DNA of 64,000 nt from Phlegmacium glaucopus (lineage: Eukaryota; Basidiomycota; Agaricomycetes; Agaricales; Cortinariaceae), in the NCBI GenBank assembly GCA_015039465.1, contig MU130497.1:857380-921379 (forward strand), given 5' to 3'. Below the pieces are notes generated by a model. It worked only from the letters and a program-made list of their open reading frames with translations, made no database searches and was not told the DNA's origin. Below are positions 1 to 37,346 of the stretch, in pieces (position 1 is the first letter of the stretch; every line of letters starts with the position of its first letter). The translations under genes were made by a program, and so were the position numbers.

Positions 1-1
1 T

Positions 2-2916
2 AATGTTAACGTTAGGTCATTCATAAAGAAACATATGATGTAAGTGACAAGAAGGAGGACTGAGAAGAAAATCATCATGGAAATTAGCCAAAGGACTACA
101 TGTAGATCTATCAGGATGTATGTTAACGGGTACACTTTTTTGACCTCTGGCATTTAGATTAGGATGTACGAAGTTACTGACGGGAACTGAGAACAAGTGA
201 CAGTATCGTTTTCGTTCAGCTTAACCTTTAACAGCAGCAGCTTCACCTTAGCGGTTTAGGAGACGTCTACCACTGTTACATTAGGCACCCTATTTGTGAT
301 GAAAAGGTCGTTTAGCAAGTAGAGGTGAGTACTAAGATGTAAAATCGTGAGAAGGAGACTAAAGGTCGTGGGAATTGGAACAGGGTAACGTTTCAGGAAA
401 GCTTCGTAGGTTTAAAGCTTCGTCGTATTGACCTGTAGGTTGAAAGTCAAATTCTACACGTTCACCTTCACTTGAACTCTGGTTACTTAAGTCTATGAGA
501 CCGCTTATACCGACGTTGAGTAAGTAGGGAAGTAGGCTGTTGAGGTGTCTCAGACGTGAGTTATCGTGTACAAGAAGAGGTCCCTTTGCTAAGTTATAGA
601 GAAGTAAGTTTAGGACTTGTGATAGTAAAAACGTTCGTTCTTACGTAGACAGGTTCTTCATGACCAGACTAAAGAGTGGTAGGAGTTAAGGTCCTATTTG
701 AAGAAGGTGGTTCCTCAATTAGCTTATCAGTCCCGTCTACTACGGGACACCTTAGAGTTAGCACAGTCTGAGTAGGTCAGGTCATGGAGGTGGTTGTAAA
801 TCGTCGGTTAAACGTTTGAGGACGTAGAGACCTCTAACAAGTTCTGCGTATAAGAGAACTTCCATTACTTAAAGTTGTAAGACGGTTTCACCCGAAGCAG
901 ACTATCTACGACGGTGTTGGACGACAGATGACGGTACTCCCTAATGACCTTCACAAACAGATTTCAGTGGTGGTTTGTTTTGTCACTAAGGTGGTTTACC
1001 TCGTAGCTATGGTTCTTGTAGGGCTTCACAAGATAGGTGTCGTAGTTAGCGTACGAACACAACGTAACCGTGAAGTAGGGTCTATTATTAACTACAAACG
1101 ACCTATTGAACCTTGTATACACTTAAGGCGGGTTATGACGTCTTACTCCACAGCAACTAAACTTATCCTTAATACTTTGACCTCACTCGTCAAGACGGTG
1201 GAAGTTCTTCTTCACTACGATACGGACTACTACGTTGTGTTTCTCGATAGAAAAGAACTCGTGTGTGTCGTCGTCGTTAACATAATGTCTGTTTACAAAA
1301 AGGTGTTGGTGGACGTGACACGTTTTTCTTGTAAAACGATAATAACAACACTTATCAGAGGTAGTGACGTAATATATGACGGGAGACAGACAGCAACTTG
1401 TCTCGTCATAACCGACACTAGGACCGTCAGTAGAGAAGTTACAATATTAGTTCGACGAGTAATTCTTCAGACAAAGGTGGGTGACGTGGGGTTAACGGTC
1501 ATTGAACACCGTATAGACGTTTTAGAGACTCGACGAAAGGGGTTCAGACTTCTTATACTAGTTAGTCTACTTCCGGTATCAGTATGTGAAGTAGGAGTCA
1601 TTTAACTGCTAAGAGTATAGGTATCTATACACACTCAGAGCGGTTCTCTAGTTATGTTTATAGTACAAATTTCAGTAAGGTCTCTTGAGGACCACTTCAT
1701 CCCAACGTCACCTTCTCTTACCATCGTTTCTCGTAGGATTCCCATATTGGACAGACGTAGAGAGGACGGAGAACATTTGTGTCAGAGGTGAGGACTAGTA
1801 AGAGGTCGTTTGGTTCTCGTAACGTACGGAGAAACTTTCACTGTATAACCTATGGTAACTGACACGCATTTACTCGTTTTCTTCACCGTGGACCTTGGTG
1901 TCATTCTTCCCAAGATTCTATTTTGGCGAGGGGACTTCTACCACTTCGTTTTATGTCGGCTGGTTAACGTATAGGAGAGAGAGATCCGAAGGTGAAGAAA
2001 CAGAAACAGAGTATATGGGTTCAGACTCCTTTCAAGACTATTCATCACAAAGACCGCAGTCCTAACCTAAGTAACTAAAATTTGGTTCGTCATTCTCCTC
2101 ACAGGGACCAAAGTGGGGAGAGGTGTTGGAGTAGTCGTAACAGTAGACCTGGTTTCATGTGGTTAACGACTAGAAGGTTTACTTGTCCTTCAGCCATTTG
2201 TCACCCAAAAAGTCGTACGTACTGTTTAAGTTTCTATACTATCGTCGAAAGTTGACTAGGTTACATCGCACGTAGGTTCATGAGGAACTGAAGTAGTGCT
2301 AAGACCAGTAGTGCTTTGAGGTCCCAACACGCCAGCACCGGAAACATCTACATGAACACTTACATGGACTGTCGAAGTTGTCATCGTGTCTAAAGTTGTA
2401 ACTATACTGTTAATACAGACCGTTAGTTAATTATTTAAAGTTTTTTTTAGTTCTCTTATTATGAATGAACCGTCTTTTTATTCCTAACATACCTTACTGT
2501 AGAGACAACAGTATACACACTGGTAAAAAGTGTTAGTGTGCAGGTAATAGTCCGGACCGTATGAAACCTATTGGTAAAAGTGGGCAATATCATACTAGTG
2601 ATTTGAGGAATCCCATTACGAACGACGTAAACGGTCGTTGGGACGTTCCACGTAATCCAAATAGTAGAGGTGTCCCAGGTACTTCGTACGTCCACCACTG
2701 TCAGAGTACATCTTCTCCTACCTCGAGTCCTAGACCTTAGACTCGTCTCTGTTATCTCAACTGAACCCGACGTAGTACTTAAAACAGTAGACCTACTTCC
2801 TTTTCCTCCTCTACGTACACCCCTTCCGGTGCAAAGACCTTAAGTTATCACATTTGGTAACGTTCTTGAAAAGGTTTACGAGGTAGTAGATACAAGAAGT
2901 TGTGATAAGATTTGTT
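2..2916. other. Mirror-image (reversed, not complemented) Helitron Rep/Pif1-helicase coding sequence
   Basis: Neither strand encodes a recognisable product, but the printed letters read from 2916 down to 2 without complementing give a spliced frame. Mirror exon 1 is 2916-2468 (449 nt), a 50-nt intron with GTAAGT and CAG borders is 2467-2418, and mirror exon 2 is 2417-2 (2416 nt). Together they make 955 codons with no internal stop, ending in TAA at 4-2. In order, the frame shows a Rep HUH motif (GLPHMHLLL, near 2826-2800), the two-tyrosine motif YIHKYIYKG (2365-2339), Walker A AGGCGKT (1315-1295), Walker B WDEVP (1081-1067), GGDFRQTLP, a KSQGQS motif near 190-170 and YVGLSRCTSG near 121-92. 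This order is that of a Helitron rolling-circle transposase (HUH nickase plus Pif1 helicase). The Rep N-terminus is missing: an in-frame TAG at 2919-2917 either ends a mirrored intron or marks the junction. As printed, the DNA could not express this protein. Confidence 0.95.
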
Positions 2917-2993
2917 GATTCTATTTTTCAATAAGAGTGTTCACTGTTAGGATATAAGACTGAGTCCACTGTTGTGATGCAGCCAGGGGTCCA

Positions 2994-3070
2994 GGGGGCG
3001 GAGCCCCCGGCAAGCCCTGAATCCGTGCTGGAGGTCGGCAAAGCGGAGCGGCGCCGTGCCGAAGGCACGG
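2994..3070. repeat. GC-rich segment with two perfect hairpins beside the mirror segment
   Basis: A sharp GC-rich block sits in AT-rich surroundings. GGGGGC at 2994-2999 pairs with GCCCCC at 3003-3008 across a 3-nt loop, and CCGTGCC at 3054-3060 pairs with GGCACGG at 3064-3070 across GAA. Such stem-loops are common at transposon ends or as dispersed repeats. I see no CTRR end that would make it a Helitron 3' terminus. It lies within 80 bp of where the mirrored reading stops, so it may belong to the sequence on the far side of the junction. Confidence 0.5.
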
Positions 3071-3130
3071 GTTCATGGCTTGTCTTTTGAAACAGGCAAT
3101 ACATGTCATGTGTTTTCCTTTGATAAACAT

Positions 3131-5527
3131 TTCGTGAGAAAAAACCCTTTGGAATGATCTAAAAATAAGTTTTTCTCAGGAAAACACCACCTGACGCCAA
3201 GAGAACAAAACAGGATAGAGTAGCTGCTGAACTATTCTTTGCTCCTTACCTATGGAACCCTCTTTTACGAGGAACCCCGAGAAATTTTGCTATTCAGCAA
3301 GGTGACTTCCCTGTTTGGCGACCTGTATTCAAATTTCAATATCAATTTCAAAGCAGTCAGTCATCACATGTATTTAATTGAGTCTTGATTCTTGCCAGAC
3401 GTTCGCCTACTCAACAAGACCTCATCTGACCACTGACAACTTGATTTCCTCTTGGAGATTACTATTCTCAGTCTCAGGCCCAATAGCTGTTGGATGTGGG
3501 AGCAGGTCGGACCTGACCGGCATTCAAAAATCGCAGAAATGGTTAGTTTCTTGAATCTTGAAACGCACTTAGATTGGTTGGCTCCGAGCTTTCGCTCTTT
3601 CCGACACGAATGGTCCCCGGTTCTAGTGACAAGTGACCAGCGATGGTGCGTGTACGGCCCCAATTCATAACCAAGGGTCCCTTGTTGGAACTTCTCATTC
3701 TTCAGGTAGACATAGCCGCTCTCGAACGCTTTGCACTCAGCACTGGTACCCTCTTTCCATGACCATGTGACATGGATTTCTGGGTCCCATTTTCATTCCC
3801 CAAAACGGATGGTCATGAGAAATCTGTGGTGTTGTAATCTTAGCAATCCGACTCTTAAAACGTTGCATCAAACGATTTCAAATTTTATCAAACGTGAACC
3901 CGAGAAGTTAACGTGACCTGTATCTAAACCTGGGCTAAGAGGTTCGTTTCAGTTTTCACTGAGTCTAAGGTATGTAACATGACTGCTATGATCATTGTCA
4001 TTTTCTTTCTGATGGTGAGCCGCCGGAGTCTACTGGCCTTCCGACGTCATGGCTAGCCACTCCGCACAAGAACAGATGGATCAATTAGTTAGACTCCACT
4101 CATGGCAAGATCAGACAAACTCTTTCATGATACGTCCCTTTCTCATCCCAATCATCTCTCTTCAATCAAATCGATTCCCTTCCATTTTAATGATTGAATT
4201 GGTCGGACTTCAACATGTAAAGGCATGCGGTACCTACCTTGCACTTCGTCAGGAGGACCTTGCCTACGTTCTAAGCCCGAGTCAAAACGTCAAGCCAGTG
4301 TACGGTATTATTAGGAACCACATATGGGAAAAGACAATGAACCTCCGAATCCGATTGATTGCCTTCGAGAGAGCAATTTCCGTTCTCCGTCGTTTAACCA
4401 TGTTACCGATCCTTCAAATCCCCTCGGATGGCGAGGTATCAAAAGGAGATGAGTGGAAGTCTACATACACTCACCATCTGACCTCATGCATCAAATCTGA
4501 TAAACCCTATTGCCGACGCCTACTCTCTTGATTTATTTGCTCGTCTGCTATGCGATTTATTGTTTACTGTCAATGGAATTTGGGGTACCCCCCTCTTTTC
4601 TAACCACGGAGAATTAGTTTGTTATCACATTCCTTCGATCATGATCATGAGATACAAATTGATTCTACATCTTTCCTTCTCTATCCAAATTCTCTAAAAC
4701 TAGTTTAGTACTCAGAATAGACCGGTTGTTGTATGCGCTGATCCCTTAACACGCTGAGTACACGACGCATTTTTATTATTCTTGCTATCGAGAAGATGAA
4801 TCTCCTCTGTACTGCCGTTAATTTGGAGCGTGTTTCATCGATGATCGGTTTTTTTCCGCCTATGGGCTGCATCTGCGGCAATGGATCCATGTAGGGTTCT
4901 TATGACTTATTTAAAGCATGCAGGAAATTTTCGGAAGACTTTTCTTATCATTGACTGCTCTGAATGCAAGTGCATGAGGTTTGGCGTAATTTGCAGTATA
5001 TATAGGTGTTGGGATAAACTTTTACGATAACCTGCACTCCATTAGATTTCCTTGCAAACAACTTGAAGAACCTTTATTGCACATGCAGACATACTCCCAA
5101 TTCTTGTCATCCCCGGATGGTCAATACTTTTATTGTCAGTCCGGGGCACATTAAACTGGGCAATTCCATCAGTGATGTTAACGACATTTCCTGTCAAACC
5201 ATAAAGAATTTCGCGACTCCCGTCGCCAGCTTGTAGACCTGAGCCCAGATTTCTCGAAGTTCAACGCACTTAGTGCTGTGTCCCAATCATTTTCTGGATT
5301 AATTCTGGTCACGGCAATGAAACCCAATCACACACTGGAGTAACTGACACTGCTAGTCTGAGCATATTGGGTCAGTTGACATGAAGTTCCAGGATCCAAA
5401 GAGTAGACAGCCGCCAGGTTCCGGGATAACTCCAGCCCAGTTCAGATGCCGATTGAAGAAGCTCGTAGCCCATATAAAGGTAAGTTCATATTCTAGATAA
5501 GATGATAAGATTAGTGTGGTCACGCGG
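3131..5527. other. Region without a supportable gene
   Basis: Open frames here are short and show no recognised motif. A + frame near 3652-3770 (residues VDIAALERFALSTGTLFP follow a possible CAG acceptor at about 3702-3704) and a + frame from 4049 to 4531 (160 codons) have some coding character, but I could not join exons or name a family. They may be remnants of decayed genes. No tRNA or repeat array was recognised. Confidence 0.4.
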
Positions 5528-7547
5528 TCATGACCAGCCGCCAGAATTTCTATTACGTAAGGGTAAAGGAAGCCACTTCTTCGTCGGTTTCCGGGTTTGG
5601 CTGCTCGAAGAGAGGCCAACTTTTCGCAACTTTGCAAGCCTATTACACATAAGTCGACGAGCAATGTTTCAGGAGGAATCGGGGGCAGCCGTACCTGCGG
5701 AGACCGGCCCAGGCAACGGTAACGGCTAGAGTAGTTGAGAGGCCTGTCATGGCGTAGAACGCATACGGATGTACCTCTAGATTGCTGAGGAGCTGGATCA
5801 CAAGGTGGATCAGCTAGAAATAGGAGAATGACGCATATCACCGACGTTCATCCCAAATAGCCCAGCCACAAGAGCACCGGAGCCAACACCAAGAGTGGCA
5901 ATAGAAACCTGTAAACATGACAGATAAATGACATTGAATAGTGAACTGGACATCGTCAACACGCACCTGCAGATCTAGGGCAAGAAGGGCATTCCGATTT
6001 GAATCCAATATTAACTCCACAATTTCCTGCGTTGATTGAACGTTGGTCTAGATATGACTGTTAGATTGCCCTCGTGATGGTTTATAGTAGGATTTACCTC
6101 AATATTTTCTGATTCATTGACGATTTCTTCAAACTGTTTAGAAAAAGATTCCAATAGCACTTCCAGCTCTTCATGGTCATGGGTCGCACGATCAATCCCA
6201 TTCTTCTTATCGCTGAGGTACATGGCGTCCATGTCCTCATCTTGTTGGAATCATTAGATGAGGGAGGAATGAAGAAAGGAAATAATATCATGTTCACCTT
6301 GGCTGAGAACTTCGTCTATAGCTTCTTCAACCTAGATTCAAAATCCGCGTGAGATTCGTCTTGCTACGGGATGATAAGGAAATTTACCAGTGACGCTCTA
6401 TTTTTGAAACTGGCTAGCCGTCTAGAGTAATGGAGTAGTCTTTTGAAGCGATCATGGTCGATGTTATCCTCCATCTCCGCGAGGAGGCCACCGACCAGAT
6501 TTCGGATGAAGACCATCTCCGCTTCTAAAGCACTCAGAACCGAGAGCAGTATTGATTCGAGCGCGCTGGAACCGGAGATAAGTTCAATAGATCGATAAAC
6601 TCAATGAAGAGCCCTGACCGAAATTCATATGGCGACCCAGAGCTTTTTGACTTGAGATTATGCTGATAAGTGGGATCAATGATGACGCTTTGACTGTGTA
6701 ATACGGCGACTGACTTCCAGATGATACAAGAAGACCGAATGAAGTCTAGAATCAGCTGAACCATACGTGTCAAACAGAATGACAGCATCCGATTTTACAA
6801 GGGCACGAATGTGAAGAATATTGACCTGACGGAGGATTTAAATAACTATATATAATTTGAATGAGGTTTCTGATACACACAAGAATAGCTTCCTTTCGCA
6901 CAAGAATAGTGGGAACGAGATTCGGAACCCTTGAATCGATTTTCCGGAGGTCACGGGCCTGTCATCGATTGCCGCCAATTTTTTGGTCAATGGAACTTCC
7001 TGGAAGTGAGGGCTTCATACTCACATTCAACTGATGCTCAGCACTAAGATCAGACTTCTTGAATTGTCCGGAAATCGTTGTAACGTTGCCTATGAGTCAT
7101 TTCTATCGAACATGCTCCATCCATCTATTAAGTTTCGTACCTTCAGCATCCAAGATAGTACCTGGAGTGATTTTTAGAAGACAGACAAACACGATTTAGG
7201 TAACTTCGCTTACACCGAAGCATAAGGTCAGTGGGTTGTCGACCTTTCATGACCTTATTCAGAATCGCAACTCGCGCTACATCCTCTTCATTGTCAGGGA
7301 CTTCGTTGAACTCGGTAGGCCGAGGTTGCGACTTGAATGACCATGATATTTGTCGACTGTTTCTTGGGTGTGGGGTCATGGTTCGATAGAGCTTGTGTGG
7401 GGTATGCATATAAGCACCGTTTGGATAGTCCGACCGAGCACTCCCTGTAAATTGGCGACTAAATCGATATGAACCGTTCGGGGAGGTCCTGAAAGCATAT
7501 TTTCGCTTTACATGAGATGTATAGCTTTTCCAGAAGCCTCTATGCAT
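5528..7547 (-). CDS. MRS2: MRS2-type mitochondrial magnesium channel (CorA superfamily)
   Basis: The spliced protein is a CorA/Mrs2-family Mg2+ channel of the inner mitochondrial membrane. The chosen ATG (7547-7545) opens a basic, Ser/Arg-rich N-terminus fitting a mitochondrial presequence. It continues through the family's LRCTILDAEG and SGQFKKSDL region, a long helical central part (ALESILLSVLSALEAEMV, then DRFKRLLHYSRRL), the stalk helix NRNALLALDLQ, membrane segment 1 with the signature GMN (IATLGVGSGALVAGLFGMN), the loop SNLEVHPYAFYA, membrane segment 2 (TGLSTTLAVTVAWAGLRR) and a basic tail ending at 5528. About twelve exons join in phase; the first seven are 7547-7214, 7161-7141, 7089-7025, 6958-6881, 6825-6715, 6662-6619 and 6565-6388. 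The intron after GMN begins GTCGGT, an unusual donor. No frameshift was seen, so the gene appears functional. Confidence 0.9.
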
Positions 7548-8179
7548 GCGCAAACAGGCCGAGGAAACCCAGTCTTGCTTTATTCCCAGATTCACCGTTC
7601 GACGTCGAGAGGTTCAAATTTGCAAATGAACTCTGATGAAAAATAAAAGTAAACATTTATGTGACAACGTGACAGATAATGTGATTGTCCCATTTGAGTG
7701 TGTGACCCCGCTTAACCCTGCTTAACCCCAGACCTCAAGGATTCCCCACATCAGATTTGGGAACTCACCGCCCGTGGACAGGAACACGCCCTGATTACTG
7801 GTTTTATGACGGAGAAGATTGAAAGATCGTTAACTCAATCTTACGGGTTATGTTATCGTTTTAATGGACTCTCCACAGCTGATGCTTTCACCTTCCGGGC
7901 TTCTCATGTCCTCCAAGAAGCGACGAAAACGTTTCCACAATGTGCTCTAGCTTTCGCGTGATCGGACATATCCGTGTTCGGCAAAAGGTGTAACTCGGGG
8001 GAACTTGGAAGATCAGGCATCTGCTGATTATTTGCGGGCTGGCTTATTACATATTCAGATCATCCATCTCCCTTCGACTGCTACTTCAACTTCGGTGACT
8101 CCGTGTTCTCATAATATGAATTGTGCTTGACAACCTTCCTTCTCTTCGCTCCCCTTCACCACTCTGTATATTTTGTACT
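7548..8179. other. Intergenic region between the divergent MRS2 and 8180 genes
   Basis: Upstream region shared by two divergent genes. A short stop-free + stretch near 7780-7960 has coding-like codon use but no start, no join to the next gene and no recognised motif. It may be an eroded exon. Nothing else is supportable. Confidence 0.4.
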
Positions 8180-24099: not shown

Positions 24100-27000
24100 T
24101 TCAGTTCTTTGACTACTTTGGCAATGGCTTCCTCTTTTTCTCTCTCTAGTACCCTTTCAAATATCTTTCATGATGTCTTGTTCCTCTCCAACAACTTCCA
24201 GTCCTTCCAATGCCCAAATTACAAAGAAGCTGGGGGTTAGGAGGGTGGTATTGGAATTGTCATCAGTCCTGGTTCCATGGTCAGCTTGGATAGACAAGGT
24301 GTCTGGCTTTCCCATGCTTTTGCCTGGTCGGTGGTGCATGAGGAAATTGAATCTGGCCAAGAATAGTGACCAACGAGCTTGCCTTCAATTGAGCTTTTTG
24401 GCTGTCATGAAGTATTCCAGATTCTTATGATCGGTCCGAATCTTGCATTTGTGTTTGGCTCCTTTGATAAAGTGCCTCCACTCTTCCATGGCCCAAATGA
24501 TTGCCAACATTTCCTTGTCATGAATTTCATAGTTTTGTTCTACTGAAGACAGGGATTTGGACAGGAAAGCGACTGGGTGCCATTTCTCATTGACCAAAGA
24601 TTGTTGGGAAAGTACAGCACCAGTAGCAAAGTCGGAGCTGTTGTAATGGGATACTCATTGTATCCGCTTCTACGGTTAGCTTAGTATGTGTATACCTTCA
24701 CCTTCTCTACGATAGTATCACTACCGCTTTCCCTTCATCCTTCACCTTGTGTACATCCCTTCATTGTTGTAGTAGTTGTCCCTCCACCAATGATGTCCCT
24801 GACTGCGGTCACATGTCAACATCTATATTTGTTATCTTGACACACCATATGCCTTCTATTTGCACTAGCCATATTTAGATGTAGTTATTCACATGCTTGT
24901 AGTATATAGGTGTAAGGTGTTAAGTTTAGAACAAAGGGGAAACGTCGGAGTAAAACCGGATTGGACGGAGTCTGATCGGAACGGAACCACGGAACGGGAA
25001 AGGACTATAGCCTCAGCATGTGTGCTGTGCTACCCTAAACCTTCGTGTCCTAATTTTGGAGTAAGAACGGAACGGAGTTGAACCGGAAGTTGCGGGAACT
25101 TAGAGGATGACTAGGAGGAGGAAACTAGGTTGATATTCAAACTGAGGGAAAACATACAAGTTCGAGTACTTTAAATATAAAAGGAATTGCAACCGAAATA
25201 TAGAATATAAATATAAGTGCTGCGTTCTGCTCCCGGAAAAGGTCCTGCATTCTTGGGTGAATAATCCATGGCTGGTGTGCTGACTGATAGTGGGAAAGTG
25301 ATGACAAAGGAATAGTTGTTATGACGAAGGTGTGGTAAGGGTTTTGGGATATCGTCGGAAGAGTCGGAATGATACAGAGAAGTCTCGGAGTTGGACGTAG
25401 GAGGAGTAGAGTCGGAGACAAGGGAAAGTACTGGAATGGAGTACGGACTACCGGAAACAACTCCGACGGAGTCGGACCAGAGTAACGTGTGACGGAATGT
25501 AACATAAGGTGCTTATCTTTGATAAGCACCTTAGTATTCAATTTGACTCCTGGGTTAAACTTCCTCTAACAGCTGTCAGCTTCAATTTGGAATGGTTTGG
25601 AGTTGTCAGGAGATGCCAGGATTGGAGCTGATGTGATTAGACCTTTGAGCGAGCCAAAAGCCGACTGTTCTTCAGAAGTCCATTTCAACTTGACATCATT
25701 CTTTGTGAGGTCAAAAAGAGGACGAGCATGATGTGAGAAATCTTCAATGAACCAACAGTAGATGTTGGTGAAGCCAAGGAAGGACTGTACTTCCTTCTTG
25801 TTGGTTGGGGCTGGCCAATCAGCTACTCCTGCAACTTTGACTGGGTCCATTTTGACTTGGTTGTGAGAAATGATGACACCAAGATACTCCACTTTTGTTT
25901 TTTCAAACTCACACTTGTCCGGTTTCAAGAAGAGCTTGTGCTTGTGCAGAAGTATGACCCTTCGGGTCACCAGCCGATGCTCCTCCAGTGTCTCAGTGAA
26001 TATCAAGATATCATCGAGATAGACCACCACAACTCCTTCCATTATGAGTTCCTGAAAGATGTCATTCATCATGGTTTGGAATGTGGCTGGGCTGTTAGTG
26101 AGACCAAAAAACATTACTAGGGGTTTGAAGAGCCCTTGGTTAGTTTGGAAAGCTGCTTTCCACTCATCTCCTTCTTTCATTCTGACATTGTTAAAACCCC
26201 ACTGAACGTCAAGCTTAGTAAAATACTTGGTGCCCCAGAGTTGGGTGATCAATTCAGAAATGAGAGGGAGCAGGTACTTGTTTTTGACCATGATAGAATT
26301 GAGTGCCCGATAATGATGAACAAGTTGGAGACTGCCATCTTTCTTCTTGATGAAGAAGACTGGGGAAGCCATTGGAGATTTGGAAGGCCGAATGCGTCCA
26401 GATTCCAAATTCTCCTGAAGAAACAGATCAAGCTCTTTCTGTTGGGATGGTGCTAATGGGTACACCTTGCAGCCTGAGGCCTTTTCACCTGGAACAAGTT
26501 TGATTGCATGGTCCCAAGGTTTGGAGTCTGGCAAGACATCAAATGACTTTTTGGAAAATACAGCATTGAACTCCCAAAGATAGTTGGGAACCCCTTCCCT
26601 GGAATCGGCCGTATTTGGGCCCAATCGGGCAGGTTGACTGTTTCGTTGAAAGGCTTCTGTGAGGTGTTGGGAAATAGTGGAGGTAGCTTGGATGCTGACT
26701 GGTGGTGGGAGTAGTCCAGTCGCAAAGATATGATCTCCATCCTCAAATTCTGAGTCACTTGTTTCCTCTTCCTCGTCCAAGTCTTCCACCAGAGTTGGAG
26801 TTGGACTGGCCAAACATGTTTGGATTTGGCGGATTTCAGCTTTTTGGCTCTTTCATTCCTCTCTGATTTTGTCTCGGCATCCCAAGCAACAATGAGGGGG
26901 GCATCAGGACATTTTGATCTCTCTGGTTACCCAGTCAATTTCAGGGTTGTGCATTTGCAACCAAGAATGTCCAAGAATCATGTTCTGCTTGCCTAGACCA

Positions 27001-34807: not shown

Positions 34808-37346
34808 ACCTGAACACTGTCAAATCCACTCCTTCTGGCCACGCTGACCTTCCAGCCCTGTTTGCCAACCTTGGAACTTCATACTCACGACGCTTTCAAC
34901 ACACTGGTGACCTCCAGGATATTGAGCACGCCATATCCCACCACCAGAACGCTGTTCAATCCACTCCTTCTGGCTACGCTGCCCTTCCAGCTCTGTTTGC
35001 CAACCTTGGAACTTCATACTCACAACGCTTTCAACACACTGGTGACCTCCAGGATATTGAGCACGCCATATCCCACCACCAGAACGCTGTTCAATCCACT
35101 CCTTCTGGCCACGCTGACCTTCCAGCTCTGTTTGCCAACCTTGGAACTTCATACTCACAACGCTTTCAACACACGGGTGACCTCCAGGATATTGAGCACG
35201 CCATATCCCACCACCAGAACGCTGTTCAATCCACTCCTTCTGGCCACGCTGGCCTTCCAGCTCTGTTTGCCAACCTTGGAACTTCATACTCACAACGCTT
35301 TCAACGCACGGGTGACCTCCAGGATATTGATCACGCCATATCCCACCACCAGAACGCTGTTCAATCCACTCCTTCTGGCCACGCTGACCTTCCGAGGAGG
35401 TTCAACAACCTTGGAACTTCGTACTTACGTCGCTTTGAACGCACCGGTGATCTCCAGGATATTGACCATGCCATATCCCACCACCAGAACGCTGTCCAAT
35501 CCACTCCATCTGGCCATGCTGACCTTCCAACTTTGTTCAAAAATCTTGGCCACTCTTACCAGTGCCGCTTCCGATCCACCCATTATTTCCTTGATGTCCA
35601 AAACAGTGTTGCTTCACATCGTCGGGCTGCTGAGGCAAATGGCGCCCCATCCATTCGTCTGCAGTCTGCCATGCTCGCGGCCGTGCTATCCCTCAGCTTA
35701 TAGTGACTCTCACTGCTTAATTGATTTTGCGAATGCTATTAGTCTGCTCTCAGAGGTTGCTGGGTTGGAACAAACAATCCATCGCCGTCATGCTAACCTC
35801 CATAACTATTCCGATCTTGTGCGATCTGCTGTGGCTACCGCCCTTCATTTCAATAAACCTGATCTCGCACTCGAATGGCTTGAGCAAGGCCGCTGCTTGG
35901 TGTGGAATCAGCTCAACCAACTCCGTGCACCAATTGACAATCTCCGCATGGAGAACCCATCCTTGGCCAATCGCTTCATACACGTTGCAAGTGCTTTAGA
36001 GTCCTACGGAACTCGTTCAGCATTATCTATTCCTACTTCACATGCTACACTTGCAGAAGACATTCGCCTTCAGGATGCCACTCGAGGTCATACCCTCCAC
36101 GCTACAGAGTATAGGCAACTTCTTAAAGAGATTCGGGATCTTCCGGATTTCCATGACTTTCTTCAGCCGCCTAAGCCCAGCGACTTCCTGTCCTCATTGC
36201 CTTCTGATGGTCCAGTCATCGTCTTCAATATTCACAACACCCGATGTGATGCCTTAGCCCTTATAGCTGGGATTGATGAACCTCTGCATATCCCTCTAGA
36301 GAACTTCAGCCTCGAGCAAGCAGAGCAACTGCAGAAGACCCTTCAATTTGGCCTACGGGAGGTGGAAGATCATCGTATTCTGCGTGGCCGCCTTGATCCA
36401 TCATTCATGTTGCTTGTTCTAAATGAACTTTGGTATAAAGTTGTCCAACCAATCCTCAAAGCACTAGGATACTCTGTAAGGTGTTGCCTATTGTCAACTT
36501 ATTTATACTGATCCTTTGCAGTTCCCTCCAAATCTTTCAGATCGCCACCGTATATGGTGGTGCCCAACCGGCCCACTCGCATTTCTTCCACTCCACGCAG
36601 CTGGGGTATATGGCTCAGCATACCAGCGAGGATCATGCATTTCCGATTATGTGGTTTCTTCATATATACCAACTGTCCGGTCCCTTAACGATAAATTCAT
36701 TGCATCATCCACCTCTTCTAAATGTACCAGCCTCGTCCTTATCAGCCAACCGAACACGCCGGGTCTTCTCTCAATACTCTCGAGCCGAACAGAGACGCAT
36801 GCCCTCAAAGCGTTGATGAAAGGAACCGGCGTCGACGCGCTGCTGTTGGAGGACTCCAAGGCGACTAGAGAGAAGGTGAAGGCGGAGATGAAGTCCCATA
36901 GCTGGGCTCACTTTGCATGCCATGGAGTGCAAGATGCCCACCAGCCTCTTGAGAGCGGCCTCTGTCTCCACGATGGCCACTTGGAGCTGCTCGAGATCAT
37001 GAAGGAGCAAATCCCAAATCTGGACTTGGCTTTCCTTTCGGCATGCCAGACAAGCAAAGGAGACCTCAAATTATCGGAGGAAGTCCTCCATCCCATTGCT
37101 GGTATGCTTGCTGCAGGTTACCGCGGTGTGGTTGGTACGATGTGGAGTATTTGCGATGTGCATAGACCAGCGTTTGCGACAGAGTTCTATCAATATTTGC
37201 TTAGGGAGAATTCGGGATTGGATGGATTGGATAGTACTCAGGCAGCCTATGCGTTGGATTACGCTACGAGGAAGGTTCGAGAGAGCCTTGGAGAGAGTGA
37301 CAGTGCACTCTTGACATGGGTTCCATATGTGCACTTCGGCTACTAA
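31954..37346 (+). CDS. Pseudokinase-PHD-TPR-CHAT protease (complete-length copy, with probable frameshifts)
   Basis: Domains in order: an N-terminal part with a hydrophobic helix (AAAAICPCLLTLKLIF), a GTTFNNISGDY-like motif (near 32776), a kinase-like domain (VVMKVYQGSHAKK; AGLDYLHDLNYPF) lacking HRD and DFG, a PHD-type finger (CPVCKE ... CSTCSEWHH ... FVCERC, about 34519-34756), six TPR units in 135-bp register (34776-35580), a helical linker (ISLLSEVAGLEQTI, ALEWLEQGRCLVWNQL) and a C-terminal CHAT domain. CHAT has the catalytic His in HFACHG (codon 36921-36923) and Cys in FLSACQT (37044-37046), with exons joining at 36475/36522. CHAT proteases are separase/caspase-like and often serve as effectors in immune or cell-death pathways. 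Two frame breaks: a 5-nt loss near 32427 relative to copy 1, and a shift near 35640-35712 between TPR and linker. It may therefore be a pseudogene, an error, or two adjacent genes. The start is uncertain. Confidence 0.75.
34773..35582 (+). repeat. Tandem array of six 135-bp TPR-coding units
   Basis: The word CTCCAGGATAT recurs at 34776 (start TCTCC), 34911, 35046, 35181, 35316 and 35451, exactly 135 bp apart, each unit encoding 45 residues such as LQDIEHAISHHQNAVQSTP and NLGTSYSQRF. Units 2-4 are nearly identical, pointing to recent unit amplification or gene conversion; units 1, 5 and 6 are more diverged. The 45-residue TPR variant is common in fungal TPR-CHAT and TPR-NLR proteins, where the array acts as a sensor or binding surface. 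Confidence 0.95.

Follow-up and report, generated by a model that had tools for sequence, protein, structure and literature searches.

The window, meaning the whole stretch of 64,000 nucleotides analyzed here (C171:857380-921379), opens with a piece of a Helitron transposon that is printed backwards. Positions 1-2903 are a plain string reversal, without complementing, of a Helitron segment. The oddity is real in the letters, an ordinary Helitron lies beneath it, and a systematic assembly or sequence-handling artefact is considered the cause with a probability of roughly 96%; a software step is probably responsible. It is not a biological feature, and biologically it is nothing new.

The reversed Helitron segment

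Among the four readings of the 64-kb window, the longest open frame (808 codons) lies in the string reversal. Splicing out a 50-nt intron at 2418-2467 (GTAAGT...TTGCCAG when read from 2467 to 2418) extends it to 954 open codons, with 949 inside the 2,903-base block. Read from 2903 to 1, the block covers a + strand Helitron Rep/Pif1 gene from its HUH region down to its stop codon, a TAA at positions 2-4 (read from 4 to 2). The initial annotation had described the single 50-nt intron correctly, and its exon lengths of 449 and 2416 agree with the mapped intron and frame positions. It had drawn the segment from 2916 to 2 with 955 codons; the reversal stands, whereas the end at 2916 lies 13 bases beyond the true end at 2903. 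As 2904-3083 is plainly printed Helitron 3′ sequence, the codons it counted in 2916-2904 are chance read-through.

The reversed protein is matched by the Pfam profiles PIF1 (E=1.2e-73), Pif1_2B (9e-19) and Helitron_like_N (1.5e-9), the last over just its final 30 positions out of 191. The block does not contain the protein's N-terminal part, nor the rest of the Helitron_like_N domain. A Pif1-type helicase and the end of a Rep domain are found in one reversed frame, as in a Helitron. The HUH motif that had been claimed alongside the helicase can be read by eye as GLPHMHLLLFL, which we take to be that of Helitron Rep. A candidate two-tyrosine site, RYIHKYIYKG, was recognized by eye and may hold the two catalytic tyrosines of the Rep protein. 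Homologous proteins numbered 1,801 among the 7,987 scored, the best with 89% identity over 84% of the query. An equally good match on the unmodified strands had been named as what would refute the observation; among five ORFs taken as controls from the remaining readings (two forward, two reverse-complement and one complement), none gave a Pfam match above the cut-off, and two had one match each below it (E 0.05-0.06). NCBIfam returned recD only, below its cut-off, and a scan of the window for Rfam families and tRNA found none.

Comparison with the genome (60.5 Mb, 259 contigs) locates the source of this sequence. The block reversed from 2903 to 1 aligns to positions 5018-7920 of locus L024 (contig C14) with 98.3% identity over 2,903 bp and 0 gaps, while the printed, un-reversed string finds no match in L024. 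Pieces of the reversed block match seven more loci (L025-L027, L029-L032) at 96.6-97.8%; the normally oriented copies of this Helitron elsewhere in the genome are thus 96.6-98.3% identical to the restored block. The earlier identification of the reversed reading as a Helitron Rep/Pif1 gene is thus borne out by both the Pfam profiles and the genomic copy.

The junction between reversed and normally printed sequence lies at 2903/2904. Beyond it, 2904-3083 is the 3′ part of the Helitron in normal orientation (+ strand), with 99.4% identity to L026 and L027 and 91.5% to L024; the Helitron copies have a common end near window position 3083. Helitrons in general have a TC 5′ end, a CTRR 3′ end with a hairpin, and insert between A and T. 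Once the block is restored, the sequence around the junction is identical to L024 at 7920/7921 over 30 bases of the block and over the first 19 bases of the plainly printed part. Window position 1 is the first base past a run of 1,251 Ns (C171:856129-857379), and the block fills the whole space from this run to the normal sequence. The run is preceded on its left by the Helitron's own 5′ part, plainly printed on the + strand, and the missing stretch left of the block takes up 1,276 printed positions against the 1,375 expected from L024. The order of plain 5′ part, gap, block and plain 3′ part indicates a + strand Helitron in its place, which is backwards only from the N run to 2903.

Recurrence across the assembly

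Searched as printed, mirrored 1-2903 matches the genome 11 times, at 10 places on 7 contigs, the window included. Block boundaries were mapped against L024 printed both plainly and reversed. Six of the ten blocks touch an N run with 0 bp between; five of these lie to the right of the run (the window, L051, L053, L054 and L057) and one to the left (L055). At a seventh place (L028/L059), k-mer scores are negative from the end of the mirrored Helitron up to an N run. The remaining three (L052/L029, L056 and L058) show no N in the stretch examined.

Reversing the block in place yields a collinear Helitron at all eight places that could be evaluated (the window and L051-L057), with an offset of 0-5 bp: 0-1 bp in seven and approximately 5 bp in L056. 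L058 and L059 show no plainly printed anchor in the stretch examined and so fall outside these eight. The blocks of L052 and L057 match the reference only in part, and their lengths were derived from both edges. Leftward of the L056 block, another 500 bp or so also score negative by k-mers, which is read as a second reversed piece. The mirrored blocks end at differing points inside the Helitron. In L058 and L041, the Helitron or LTR piece has another mirrored repeat next to it. At L029 4727-7544 (C206), two reversed Helitron pieces adjoin each other between normal flanks, with no N run; of this stretch, 6617-7544 (approximately 0.9 kb) has no match in the reference Helitron; it seems as if a gap had been closed there by two reversed pieces. 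Unmirrored gap edges also occur, at both edges in L024 and L026 and at the left edges in L010, L027, L030 and L032, in a sample that is not random, being composed of loci with gaps drawn by repeats or beside the window.

Mirroring is no property of Helitrons. An unrelated LTR, whose solo copy at window 24918-25504 is itself plainly oriented, is also mirrored elsewhere, with 59 mirrored against 1,147 plain first-look candidates (40 of each scored). An N run is found within the locus of approximately 3.5 kb in six of eight mirrored LTR loci versus none of eight plain ones (the window's own included). Among LTRs with both ends found, matching 5-bp flanks are present in three of six mirrored (L034, L035 and L040) versus five of seven plain; the mirrored blocks take neighboring DNA along with them. 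Identities of the listed matches are 76-98% for mirrored and 73-100% for plain LTRs, two ranges that are not comparable, the latter coming from the best 40 of 1,147 candidates. Separately, the stretch from L009 9047 to L010 3429 (C171:846426-850808) holds two mirrored LTR pieces that lie 24 bp apart, with no N separating them. They overlap by approximately 140 bp within the LTR, an arrangement that would fit a gap closed from two pieces, each reversed on its own.

The reversed piece of one host gene had no matches in the genome. A reversed gypsy pol piece had one weak match (68%, 338 bp) versus 41 in plain form, where 40 of the 102 candidates were scored. The mirrored share hence differs strongly between the Helitron, the LTR and gypsy pol. 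The single gypsy pol match is at G000:C132:292129-292466 and is possibly a mirrored relative.

Direction of composition and of substitutions

A 6-mer direction test was trained outside the segment, with the comparison blocks lying within the training set. All six 500-bp blocks of window 1-3000 scored from -63 to -117, while the 120 remaining blocks had a mean of +56.6 (SD 25.1, minimum -27.8). The test also flagged window 24896-25507 as mirrored. This call was rejected as a false positive, as the region holds a genuine solo LTR of 587 bp in normal orientation (24918-25504), with TGTTA...TAACA ends and a 5-bp TAAGG duplication on both sides. A negative score alone is therefore no proof of a mirrored block.

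Two further features of the window were noted. Beside the solo LTR is an ORF on the minus strand (25566-26813) that is presumably gypsy pol-like. Elsewhere, the ORF at 34862-36511 starts with several near-identical repeats of approximately 41 residues (such as LPTLELHTHNAFNTLVTSRILSTPYPTTRTLFNPLLLATL) and lies directly upstream of the ORF at 36516-37346, which we assume to be CHAT-like. By its lyase gene the host is a mushroom, the closest named relatives of this gene coming from Crassisporium funariophilum (80%) and Flammula alnicola (78%), both members of the Agaricales.

The substitutions record the direction in which the sequence evolved. Eight mirrored blocks, un-reversed and compared with L024 over 11,011 aligned bp, show 137 transitions, with 60 of CpG type and 29 of GpC type. 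Four normal copies compared with L024 over 8,774 bp show 141 transitions, with 51 of CpG type and 31 of GpC type; the reference stretch contains 97 CG and 278 GC. The mirrored blocks carry the mutation pattern of normally oriented DNA, and no excess of substitutions in the printed orientation was found in the eight. All that this pattern speaks against is a prolonged existence as mirror DNA, since changes acquired before mirroring would look identical. Changes private to the window copy number 9, too few to inform, and include no CpG- or GpC-type transitions. The 50 differences from L024 are spread uninformatively over first (19), second (12) and third (18) codon positions and the intron (1).

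Origin of the reversed blocks

The preferred reading is that a gap-filling or contig-placing step would have inserted window 1-2903 of a + strand Helitron as a string reversal. Reversing a string in place gives the same letters as a contig that was due for reverse-complementing and was complemented without being reversed. The same fault struck many other pieces of the assembly, those found having all come to light through repeats and often lying beside N runs. These runs are presumably assembly gaps, and N can also stand for other omitted stretches. Either slip would account for blocks that come piece by piece, lie at gap edges and have exact ends, and would be compatible with normal gap edges elsewhere; at the three Helitron places without N, the gaps are assumed to have been closed. 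Six of ten blocks abutting N runs and eight of eight evaluable places becoming collinear on reversal are what such an artefact predicts. An error of sequence handling or assembly, which the initial annotation had favored as the simplest reading, is in this way supported by recurrence, by N-run edges and by collinearity in place. Two points are not explained in detail by it, namely the three of ten places without N and the unequal mirrored share, and neither of them favors mirror-image DNA.

A variant of the artefact is that contig ends were extended and the added bases emitted in the order of their addition, as opposed to complementing without reversal. Speaking for this variant are the blocks that adjoin N runs, whether to the right of the run (window, L051, L053, L054 and L057) or to its left (L055), and the two reversed blocks in L029 that seem to meet without N. 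However, a rightward extension should need no reversal, and yet L055 is reversed. The two operations give identical strings, between which the letters alone cannot decide, and the variant is held to be a tentative possibility.

The remaining explanations are far less probable. A segment planted in the window, or reversed by those supplying the DNA, is suggested by the fact that a plain reversal makes an obvious test item and that the block begins at window base 1. However, the fault is also in the genome copy, where locus L011 is identical to the window throughout the 6,000 bases that were compared, and it recurs at nine other Helitron sites and at dozens of LTR sites, both at N edges and in N-free stretches, with ends internal to the element. 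The single planted segment that had been offered earlier is thus hard to reconcile with ten Helitron places on seven contigs, dozens of LTR places and six of ten blocks abutting N, and planting in any form is very unlikely. Mirror-image DNA that is physically present, the product of some unknown mechanism of copying strands in the wrong direction, would fit the many occurrences and the restored window block being a good copy of a real element. It is more improbable still: the blocks are in-place replacements, collinear after reversal, with 6/10 at N runs. Their substitutions are not in excess in the direction as printed, and the restored ORF shows 949 undisrupted codons; a very recent origin is still compatible with both. 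To our knowledge, no polymerase makes mirror-image DNA. Mirrored repeat blocks that are real, recent and break the assembly at their edges would themselves explain the N runs, and this form of the idea is judged just as improbable. A chance open frame or low-complexity resemblance has a negligible probability; no support for it was found, and it is ruled out by the gapless 98.3% match over 2,903 bp together with the PIF1 hit of 1.2e-73.

The probable artefact matters to some extent for the quality of the data. The reversed blocks are invisible to ordinary searches, as these try only the string and its reverse complement. They conceal genuine transposon sequence, bias element counts and could give rise to false genes. 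The k-mer direction test is reference-free and could be used on other assemblies, though it flagged one genuine LTR.

Among the papers listed by searches of PMC literature, titles and abstract openings gave no description of errors that reverse without complementing or complement only. Compared with Helitrons, rolling-circle transposons, of the Agaricomycete type (Rep/Pif1 helicase), the element agrees, once its string is reversed, in PIF1, Pif1 2B and the last part of Helitron_like_N. It differs in its printed direction only, and the restored form resembles an ordinary member. The usual orientation errors in records and scaffolds resemble the present case in that a piece is inserted by the wrong string operation beside a gap. 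Such errors yield the reverse complement, whereas here the pieces are reversed without being complemented, and the fault recurs on many contigs.
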